A DNA stretch of 31,592 nucleotides from a virus, in the IMG/VR virus record IMGVR_UViG_3300033143_001814, positions 1 to 31,592 of that record. The stretch is one strand, 5' to 3'. This document shows, piece by piece, positions 1,520 to 13,352 of the stretch (position 1 is its first letter; each line of letters begins with the position of its first letter). The notes under the pieces were generated by a model. That model did no database searches and had not been told where the DNA came from. It saw only the letters and a list, made by a program, of their open reading frames with translations. The translations under genes and the position numbers were made by a program.

Positions 1520-1547
1520 TTGACTTATGATGAAAATGTGGTATAAT
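1520..1547 (+). promoter_or_regulatory. Promoter P1, sigma-70 type with extended -10
   Basis: TTGACT at 1520-1525 and TATAAT at 1542-1547 are 16 bases apart. A TGG directly before TATAAT gives an extended -10 (TGN). The 18 bases AATTATTTTTCCCTTGAC at 1507-1524 recur exactly at the second promoter near 6870, and both continue TGGTATAATAT around the -10. It points at the genes starting at 1587. Confidence 0.85.
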
Positions 1548-1916: not shown

Positions 1917-1917
1917 A

Positions 1918-1986
1918 CAACAGGGACTGGACAGATGCACAAATAGTAGCAGGTAGATATTCTTGTCCGTCCCTGTTGTATTTTTT
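1918..1986 (+). terminator. Stem-loop A with U-rich tail
   Basis: CAACAGGGAC (1918-1927) plus GGAC (1929-1932) pair with GTCC (1965-1968) plus GTCCCTGTTG (1969-1978), a 14-pair stem with one bulged T, followed by TATTTTTT. The 32-base loop is far larger than in ordinary intrinsic terminators, so this may be a terminator, an RNA-processing site or a structured small RNA. Confidence 0.6.
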
Positions 1987-2002
1987 GTTGTAGTGAAAAT
2001 TG

Positions 2003-2077
2003 AATAAATGGACGGTTGCAAATACTTTAAGTACATAGCCTATAAAGAAAGCAGATTTGGCTGTCCATTTATTTTTT
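2003..2077 (+). terminator. Stem-loop B with U-rich tail
   Basis: AATAAATGGAC (2003-2013) pairs perfectly with GTCCATTTATT (2063-2073), and the T-run extends to 2077. The 49-base interior can form two further short hairpins (TACT/AGTA and AGCC/GGCT), giving a three-way junction. It lies 25 bases after stem-loop A and resembles it at the 5' side of the loop (GGAC..G.TGCA.AATA). It may be a second terminator or part of a structured RNA. Confidence 0.55.
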
Positions 2078-2101
2078 GAAAATTAAAGCGAAAGAGATGA
2101 G

Positions 2102-4406: not shown

Positions 4407-4958
4407 ATGAAACAAATACCATTTCCAAATAAGAAATACCAGATAATTTATGCTGACCCACCTTGGAACGGTCTTGGGTGGAACAACGGAAGCGGTAATA
4501 AATGCCCTGCAAATCATTATTCTGTACAAGATGCAAATTGGATTAAATCTTTGTCCGTTAGTAGTATTACCGATAATACTTGTGCATTATTTTTATGGGT
4601 AACTTTTCCTACTTTACCTTTGGGTCTTGAGGTTATTTCTTCTTGGGGTTTTTCTTACGCCACATGCGGATTTAATTGGGTAAAACGTAATAAGAAAAAT
4701 GATGATTTTTTTGTTGGATGTGGTAATTATACAAGAGCTAATTCTGAACTATGTTTATTAGGGACAAAAGGACATTGCCAAAAATTACGAAAATCTCGAA
4801 GTGTACGTCAAGTATGTGATTCCCGAATTAGGCAGCACAGCCAAAAACCGGACGAAATACGAGATAGGATTGTCACCTTGTTTGGAGATATTCCTCGTAT
4901 TGAATTATTTGCTCGTCAGAAAACACCGGGATGGGACGTGTGGGGCAATGAAGTCTAA
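4407..4958 (+). CDS. MT-A70-family DNA adenine methyltransferase
   Basis: From ATG 4407 the protein has 183 residues. ATG 4407, one base after the previous stop and behind AAAAGGA, is preferred to the ATG at 4386 inside the upstream gene. The catalytic DPPW is at 17-20 in IIYADPPW; FLWVTFPTLP follows as the conserved W strand, then FNWVKRNK, the ELCLLGTKG strand, and the C-terminal HSQKP..IRDRI motif used in SAM and target binding. MT-A70 enzymes transfer a methyl group from SAM to adenine N6. No restriction partner is nearby, so protection against host restriction, or strand marking alongside the polymerase, is likely. It is one of three unrelated methyltransferases in the window. Confidence 0.9.
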   Translation: MKQIPFPNKKYQIIYADPPWNGLGWNNGSGNKCPANHYSVQDANWIKSLSVSSITDNTCALFLWVTFPTLPLGLEVISSWGFSYATCGFNWVKRNKKNDDFFVGCGNYTRANSELCLLGTKGHCQKLRKSRSVRQVCDSRIRQHSQKPDEIRDRIVTLFGDIPRIELFARQKTPGWDVWGNEV

Positions 4959-6882: not shown

Positions 6883-6911
6883 TTGACATGGTCTGAATAG
6901 TATGGTATAAT
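6883..6911 (+). promoter_or_regulatory. Promoter P2, sigma-70 type with extended -10
   Basis: TTGACA at 6883-6888 and TATAAT at 6906-6911 are 17 bases apart, both perfect consensus, with TGG before the -10. The 18 bases AATTATTTTTCCCTTGAC at 6870-6887 are identical to P1, and the copy begins in the stop codon of the polymerase gene. It drives the genes starting at 6968. Confidence 0.92.
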
Positions 6912-7337: not shown

Positions 7338-7534
7338 TGTACATTGATTGTCCAACTTGCGGCCAAACCGAACACGAGAGTAAGTTTCACACATGTAGCA
7401 GATGTAGGCAATATATATGTAAGTGGTGTCGAGATAATACACATGCGTGTGTAGATGTTTATAGTGATGAGTATGAGGTTGAGGTAATCGGTAATATCCA
7501 TGAAAATCCAGAACTCTTGAAAGAACAACAATGA
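7337..7534 (+). CDS. 65-residue Cys-rich protein, RING- or treble-clef-like
   Basis: ATG 7337 overlaps the previous stop. Seven Cys and several His occur in the first 40 residues: CPTC (5-8), CSRC (20-23), CKWC (28-31), then H and C near 36-38, followed by an acidic tail. The density suggests two zinc sites in a compact finger, with a spacing reminiscent of small RING or treble-clef domains. It overlaps the ERCC4 nuclease start by four bases. Function is unknown. Confidence 0.7.
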   Translation: MYIDCPTCGQTEHESKFHTCSRCRQYICKWCRDNTHACVDVYSDEYEVEVIGNIHENPELLKEQQ

Positions 7535-8019
7535 GGTATTTGAAAACTAAAAAAGTTCCAAAGCAATTCACCGTTCTTGTCGATGATCGTGAGAAAAAAG
7601 CGTGGGACTTATCCTATAAGATTGAGAAGAAACGTCTAAAGACAGGTGATTATACCATCAAAGGCTTCGAGAAGGTAATTGCCATCGAAAAGAAAAGTGG
7701 ATTAATTGAATTGCTAAATGACTTGGCCAATGGATATAGAAATACATTTGAGAGATTTCTGAAACGCTTGAGTGAGTACCCGGTCAAAGTTATCATTGTA
7801 GAGGATACCTTGAGCGAATTAAGTATTAATCGTGCCCTGGCACACATAAGACATAAAAGTAGAGGTAGGGCAAGATTAACATCCAGGTCAATATACTATT
7901 GGGTGAGTGAGATAGCGATTAAATATGGAATACCTATTGTGTTTGTAGGTAAAAGAGCAAAGATAGATTTGTTGCCAGAGATTTTTCGGGCGGCGTTTGA
8001 ACGTGCAAATGAATTTTAA
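7531..8019 (+). CDS. ERCC4-type nuclease
   Basis: The protein has 162 residues. The ERCC4 (XPF/Mus81) core is complete: VDDREKKAW (17-25), the conserved KTGDYTI (37-43), and IAIEKKSGLIELL (50-62), where EKK takes the place of the family ERK signature and D18/D19, E21, E53 and K55 are the likely metal-site residues. There is no helicase or helix-hairpin-helix domain. Family members cut branched DNA or 3' flaps. With the Sak4-like ATPase, SSB and the second nuclease it makes a plausible recombination and repair set. It overlaps the preceding zinc protein by four bases. Confidence 0.85.
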   Translation: MRYLKTKKVPKQFTVLVDDREKKAWDLSYKIEKKRLKTGDYTIKGFEKVIAIEKKSGLIELLNDLANGYRNTFERFLKRLSEYPVKVIIVEDTLSELSINRALAHIRHKSRGRARLTSRSIYYWVSEIAIKYGIPIVFVGKRAKIDLLPEIFRAAFERANEF

Positions 8020-12652: not shown

Positions 12653-13352
12653 TTGTCTGAAAGAGATGCCAAAAATTCCTGATGAATCTATTGATATGGT
12701 TCTTTGTGACCCGCCCTACGGTACGACGGCTTGCAAGTGGGATTCAGTAATATCGCTTGAGTCTATGTGGAAGCAGTTGAAACGAGTGATTAAGCCTAAT
12801 GGTGCTATTGTAATGACTGCAAGCCAGCCGTTTACTACAGTTCTAATATTATCTAATATGAAGATGTTTAAGTATTGTTGGGTTTGGGTTAAAACTAAAC
12901 CAACCGGGTATCAAATAGCTAAAATAAAACCGCTTTCAAAACATGAAAACATTGTAGTATTTGGTGCTGGAAGATTAAATTATATACCCCAAATGGTTCT
13001 TAGAGATAAGCCGAGAGTCGGTATAGTCCATAGTACTAATAACCAGATGAAGGTATCAGGAGGTGGTGTTTATAGAGTTAATAAAAAATATACTCATAAA
13101 TATCCCACTACAGTAATAGAAATTGCTAATGGAAGTCAGAAGGGTAAAGTCCATCCTACACAAAAACCAGTAGCTCTTATGGAATATCTAATCAAAACCT
13201 ATACCAACGAAGGTGACACAGTTCTCGACTTTGCAGCAGGAAGTGGAACAACAGGTGTGGCGTGTCAAAATCTGAATCGCCAATTTATTCTTATTGAAAA
13301 AGAAGCAAAGTATATAGAAATAATAAAACAAAGACTGGAGCAAGAGAAATGA
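12630..13352 (+). CDS. DNA adenine methyltransferase, DPPY type (N6-adenine, beta order)
   Basis: ATG 12630 gives 240 residues; a frame from 12585 would overlap upstream genes and lacks the strong ribosome site. Motif IV DPPY is at 27-30 near the N-terminus. HPTQKP (185-190) and the SAM-binding LDFAAGSGTTG (209-219) are near the C-terminus, the order of beta-class enzymes, followed by FILIEK..KYIEI. It transfers methyl from SAM to adenine (or possibly cytosine N4) in a specific target. No restriction enzyme is adjacent. The stop overlaps the next gene by four bases. Its first codons (MRKII) are shared at DNA level with the next gene. Confidence 0.9.
   Translation: MRKIIHGDCLKEMPKIPDESIDMVLCDPPYGTTACKWDSVISLESMWKQLKRVIKPNGAIVMTASQPFTTVLILSNMKMFKYCWVWVKTKPTGYQIAKIKPLSKHENIVVFGAGRLNYIPQMVLRDKPRVGIVHSTNNQMKVSGGGVYRVNKKYTHKYPTTVIEIANGSQKGKVHPTQKPVALMEYLIKTYTNEGDTVLDFAAGSGTTGVACQNLNRQFILIEKEAKYIEIIKQRLEQEK

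Follow-up and report, generated by a model that had tools for sequence, protein, structure and literature searches.

An uncultivated phage has two adjacent hairpins, A and B, behind its small early genes. They are real and probably have a function as RNA, judging by how their sequences have been kept in related phages, among them loop bases that a simple transcription stop could do without; the nature of this function we infer. B is supported as an RNA module that goes beyond a terminator, because one of its copies has no U-tract, its core is conserved and the gene upstream of it changes; for A the picture is similar and the support weaker. As structured RNAs with a constrained core, B is well supported and A moderately so. 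We see about an even chance that the two are separate structured RNAs that form 3' untranslated parts of early genes, with a core that is recognised by a factor.

The contig and its early region

The window, by which we mean the whole stretch of 31,592 nucleotides that was analysed, is a 31.6 kb uncultivated phage contig from an IMG/VR record, with genes for a family A DNA polymerase and for a protein like uracil-DNA glycosylase. It has no close relative among named phages: of the matches listed, the best for the polymerase are 24-25% identical, and a search with the 416-aa gene beside the polymerase gave zero matches. The features considered here all lie on the + strand:

1520..1547, +: predicted strong sigma-70 type promoter (TTGACT, 16 nt, TATAAT, extended -10; 11/12 consensus matches, by consensus match only)
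1917..1979, +: element A, an imperfect hairpin, from its fold against shuffles and its homologues in L005 and L008
1937..1965, +: conserved interior of A, GCACAARUA ... AGGUAGAURUUCUUG
1981..1986, +: U-tract behind A, six T, found in 3/3 A copies
1993..2002, +: joint sequence TGAAAATTGA, the site where L005 has an extra 87-aa gene
2002..2074, +: element B, a hairpin with P1 (2002-2016/2060-2074), P2 (2019-2023/2055-2059) and P3 (2025-2029/2043-2047)
2016..2059, +: conserved core of B, UUGCAAAUACUUUAAG and UAAAGAAAGCAGAUUUG flanking a variable apical loop (2032-2042)
2072..2077, +: U-tract of B, six T, overlapping the end of P1 and lost in L005

The promoter at 1520..1547 is the nearest strong one predicted upstream of A and B, and one of its type occupies the equivalent position in L005, L006, L008 and L011. 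After B the next strong promoter is predicted at 6883, with none in the stretch from B through the polymerase gene. The two window promoters (1520-1547 and 6883-6911) are near-identical (CCCTTGAC ... TGGTATAATAT), each heads an early gene block, and they recur in related contigs. The 68-aa ORF at 1710-1916 of the window is truncated at its 3' end in comparison with the products of L005, L006 and L008, which end in RVRLLEKGE.LVV; a search with its product found nothing.

Anatomy of the two hairpins

The first base of A directly follows the stop codon of the 68-aa ORF in the window. Its outer arms (ACAACAGGGAC at 1917-1927 and GTCCCTGTTGT at 1969-1979) form 11 pairs, and inwards of a bulged U1928 lies GGAC (1929-1932) paired with GTCC (1965-1968). 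The stem first described as 14 pairs thus consists of 11 pairs, the bulged U and 4-5 further pairs. Its fold has an energy of -27.6 kcal/mol (z -5.32), and 0/200 dinucleotide shuffles folded as well.

B begins 22 bases beyond A. Its stem (AATAAATGGAC at 2003-2013 with GTCCATTTATT at 2063-2073) has exactly the 11 pairs and the 49-base interior that had been described, and runs into T2072-2077. It extends inwards by three pairs (G-U, G-C, U-G), to 15 in total with an outer G-U, and is A+T-rich, with four G-C pairs only. The fold (-18.3 kcal/mol, z -3.15) was again equalled by 0/200 dinucleotide shuffles. The description of two hairpins with U-tails was essentially right in coordinates and pair counts, with six T at each 3' end, and the words GGAC, TGCA and AATA are indeed found in both.

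The further suggestion that A and B look like copies has to be abandoned. With a covariance model of A, the + strand of B reaches 15.8 bits and the wrong strand 15.7, and a model of B scores A at 14.0 and 13.0; such near-equal wrong-strand scores indicate that the two share only outer stem pairing. When A and B of the window were compared directly, their similarity stayed short of p<0.05 against shuffles. We therefore rejected the idea that they are copies of one family, as there is no mutual recognition beyond the outer stem. A known riboswitch or other Rfam RNA was rejected as their identity too, since none of 4227 Rfam families matched either element above its gathering score.

Homologues in related phages

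Scans of viral contigs with the proteins encoded nearby yielded six more contigs of the group, G002 (L004/L005), G003 (L006), G004 (L003/L008), G005 (L007), G006 (L011) and G007 (L014), and the short L002. The homologues found in them are:

L005 2461-2521 and L008 7007-7068: homologues of A
L005 2857-2942 and L006 3563-3644: homologues of B

Each element is represented by three sequences, from the window and two contigs, of which the window and L005 are close relatives. RNAalifold folds the A alignment into one long imperfect hairpin of 22 consensus pairs, 97% of which are kept; three pairs are changed on both sides in this three-sequence alignment. Of the 25 pairs of B (P1 15, P2 5, P3 5), 98.7% are kept across its three sequences. 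Two P1 pairs are changed on both sides (A-U to G-C and G-C to A-U) and four on one side, pairing falls to <=50% when the partners are slid, and RNAalifold unaided gives almost the same fold. P2 and P3 are invariant in the three sequences, hence pairing there is unproven, and for both A and B, with three sequences each, the covariation counts are matched by 47-48/500 column shuffles. We regard the covariation, read from these alignments, as modest and supportive, not as proof. Compensatory changes, whose absence from homologous phages had been named beforehand as evidence against a structured RNA, are present, with three sequences per element. The three-way junction proposed for B (AGCC/GGCU) is not kept in L006, which has GAUU in place of GGCU.

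In the B copy of L005 the U-tract is gone, the stem running into UAUAUAUUAUAUAUUAGGAG, yet stem and core are retained. This copy follows directly on the stop codon of the 87-aa gene, which is missing from the window; the joint coincides there with the repeat TGAAAATTGA, found twice in L005, behind A and as the final bases of the 87-aa gene before B. L006 has a different ORF upstream of B than L005. B stays while its upstream gene differs in each phage, and it travels independently of the gene in front. A small helix-turn-helix protein, sigma region 4-like by eye, is encoded at L008 6733-7044 and L006 2562-2829; the final codons of the L008 gene extend into element A, where its stop codon lies.

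Covariance models run over eight related contigs gave no additional convincing copy, with no further B and, for A, only a weak tRNA-like match and one chance match in a structural gene. Pattern scans of viral contigs returned the two known relatives only, for A as for B, the remaining B matches being without the stem and mostly within genes. The 35 matches of the B pattern in bacterial genomes have <=8 flanking pairs, versus 15-17 in true copies. The plasmid collection gave no match, and one match at chance level fell in the polymerase gene of the uncultured phage cr52_1. Outside the related contigs, neither Rfam nor the collections of phages, plasmids, viral contigs and genomes gave a convincing match.

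Selection on the interiors

We used the four-fold degenerate sites of flanking genes as a neutral yardstick. The window is identical to G003 at 38-42% of these sites and to G004 at 47-48%. The core of B, UUGCAAAUACUUUAAG ... UAAAGAAAGCAGAUUUG, is identical across the three genomes, with 31/31 identical columns between the window and L006 (chance about 2e-12 at the four-fold rate), and the B interior overall is identical at 33/39 (p about 5e-8), while the apical loop varies both in its length and in its bases, and P1 has diverged too. The interior of A is identical at 27/35 between the window and L008 (p about 4e-4 at the neighbouring genes' four-fold rate). Both the A interior and the B core have an unpaired part conserved beyond the neutral rate. 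Measured against this yardstick, the B interior is demonstrably under selection at the RNA level; the same claim for the A interior is weaker. Exchange between phages may account for some of the identity; if recent, it could raise identity, but it would not be expected to spare the core while the stem and loop around it diverged.

The invariant core also bears on whether A and B are processing sites, as known from T7 early RNA, at which an enzyme of RNase III type would cut the polycistronic early transcript between its genes. RNase III requires little sequence specificity, which leaves the 31 invariant bases of B unexplained, and T-runs are unnecessary for such a site. The duplexes are of a suitable kind, some 20-25 pairs long and interrupted by bulges or by an asymmetric internal loop, and stand between early genes, and RNase III cuts T7, T3 and lambda RNAs (PMC5371410). 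On balance we hold processing of this type to be quite improbable.

B contains a short ORF (window 2008-2079, ATG at 2008; MDGCKYFKYIAYKESRFGCPFIF), whose frame is common to L005 and L006 and shifted in the window. As a small gene it would encode a peptide of 23-28 aa, and the frame shared by L005 and L006 does read as related peptides (MDSCKYFKHWALSRLKKADLAVHLYIIY and MGNCKYFKTLILKKADLIAHLFLKRAK, with CKYFK..LKKADL..HL in common). The frame is nevertheless broken in the window, a ribosome-binding site is absent, unlike in surrounding genes, and the compared codons have 5 non-synonymous versus 2 synonymous changes. The codons for ten core residues are base-identical and the stem pairing survives the changes. 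Constraint on the RNA fits this frame better than constraint on a peptide, a double role being possible, and a small gene as the explanation of B seems to us very unlikely.

Probably more than a terminator

In the window, A and B have G+C-containing stems that run into six T on the + strand directly behind genes, as would be expected of plain intrinsic terminators whose loops are unusually long and whose interior has no role. A stable stem followed by a U-tract is found in both window elements and not in the L005 copy of B, which nevertheless keeps stem and core. Neither has a loop of 3-8 nt on a G+C-rich stem, and the terminator scan omits both, whereas ordinary-looking terminators elsewhere in the group have 16-bp stems and 5-nt loops. 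The A+T-rich stem of B also fits a plain terminator poorly, and the interiors are conserved far above the neutral rate. A full stop would moreover be costly, as the downstream genes, including the polymerase, lack a strong promoter before 6883; with the next one only there, A and B are unlikely to be complete blocks unless antitermination takes place. For these reasons we consider plain termination unlikely. What holds of the earlier proposal of a new phage structured RNA is a structured RNA beyond a terminator, to which the conserved cores, the compensatory changes and the U-tract-free B point; the copies and the three-way junction do not hold.

We favour two structured RNAs at the 3' ends of early genes, each with a recognised core. 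A and B would be transcribed together with the small early genes ahead of them, probably from the promoter at 1520, and their anatomy suggests that each hairpin forms the 3' end of a transcript or acts as a leaky terminator. The closing stem is kept through sequence change, with a U-tract behind it in most copies. Recognition of the core by a protein or RNA of the host or the phage would be the likeliest reason for its conservation, and would make the element a stable 3'-end RNA or a 3'-UTR regulatory element instead of a plain terminator. This explanation is favoured by the kept pairing and double changes in homologues, the 31/31 core of B, the L005 copy and the varying upstream genes, and also by the start of A (window) and B (L005) right after stop codons and by the short-loop 16-bp hairpins elsewhere in the group that look like ordinary terminators. 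It is weakened by n=3 per element, the invariant P2 and P3, the lack of a recurrent complementary site and possible exchange between phages.

Other elements in the same slot

In the slot of A and B, L005 (3161-3252) and L008 (7203-7296) have degenerate tRNA-like elements with a T-run behind. Both fold as cloverleaves at 80% of the ARAGORN threshold, a level passed by 0.2% of the shuffles of the first and 1% of those of the second, and standard settings call no tRNA. The L005 element has a Leu-like D-arm sequence (GGUGGCGGAAUAGGUAGACAC). A further hairpin at L008 7087-7180 has D-loop-like (AGUUGGGUAAUGGC) and T-loop-like (GGUUCAACACC) sequences and a T-run at its end, and its fold is only slightly better than shuffles.

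A and B could be shrunken remnants of tRNA-like elements, with the fuller forms in the slot of these relatives. Besides the cloverleaves, the A model matches L005 3161-3252 at E 0.003, and the 3' half of A resembles the same element (p 0.01-0.02). Against such an origin, ARAGORN at all thresholds tried and RF00005 were negative for A and B as tRNAs, and RF00005 and standard ARAGORN found no tRNA anywhere in the group contigs. The B model gives the L008 tRNA-like element 1.1 bits and so does not recognise it, and the consensus fold of A is a single long hairpin, not an acceptor plus T-arm. We judge this origin very unlikely.

Two larger elements were observed. L007 has a 227-nt element (7409-7636) with a 12-bp G+C-rich closing stem and a T-run, placed ahead of the promoter instead of behind it. 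It resembles the 5' part of the L008 tRNA-like element (p 0.006), within a larger structure, and the ends are alike too. In L011, some 330 nt (4487-4820) directly behind a strong promoter and ahead of the next gene contain no obvious gene; they end in a 14-bp stem and T-run at the place of B. This stretch and L006 end in the same tail, CCATTTGTTTTTGAAAAGAGC; searches identified it neither as a relative of B nor as an Rfam family. Compared with shuffles, none of the L007, L008 and L011 elements folds clearly better.

These different structured elements in the same slot of related phages lead us to a tentative suggestion, to which we attach rather low confidence: the region from the early promoter to the replication genes may be an exchange slot for self-contained RNA modules, where phages each carry different structured RNAs (A, B, degenerate tRNA-like, an enlarged L007 relative, the L011 stretch), some with the same 3' tail. 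Elsewhere in the group, an inverted repeat (ACATCCCATT/AATGGGATGT) flanks an A+T-rich stretch with a tract of 12-13 T upstream of the 416-aa gene in both G003 (L072 743-871) and G006 (13073-13200), and is possibly an origin or a regulatory site.

Relation to known systems

Our literature search on elements like A and B yielded analogies only. Intrinsic (Rho-independent) terminators likewise have a stem and then a U-tract behind a gene, whereas the interiors of A and B are about 40-50 nt long and conserved in sequence, and one B copy lacks the U-tract. The lambda int retroregulator, sib (Plunkett and Echols, 1989, as cited in PMC5371410), and the L17 downstream element are, like A and B, structured RNAs behind a coding region, and a structured element in a 3'-UTR possibly acts on its message via the 3' end (PMC2864571). 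The upstream gene of B, by contrast, changes between phages; the likeness is one of position and structure alone, and we claim no sequence relation.

DicF-type phage-derived small RNAs are, like A and B, short phage-encoded RNAs with a terminator-like hairpin (PMC12197685). DicF and its kin are prophage RNAs with characterised targets, whereas a search for recurrent sites complementary to A or B, as trans targets, found none. GOLLD and ROOL are also structured phage RNAs of unknown function and often lie near tRNAs (PMC12286853), and here tRNA-like elements occupy the slot of A and B in relatives. A and B differ from them in being about 63-73 nt long, not hundreds, and in having no Rfam match.

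Implications

Most small structured RNAs in uncultivated phages have yet to be mapped, as annotation skips intergenic gaps. B is a defined element of 73 nt whose core is invariant; it comes in three natural variants, and one natural copy is free of a U-tract, which makes RNA function beyond termination directly testable. The slot of A and B in related phages is a place to seek more RNAs, including degenerate tRNA-like ones. If the exchange slot is real, these phages would swap RNA genes as others swap protein genes.
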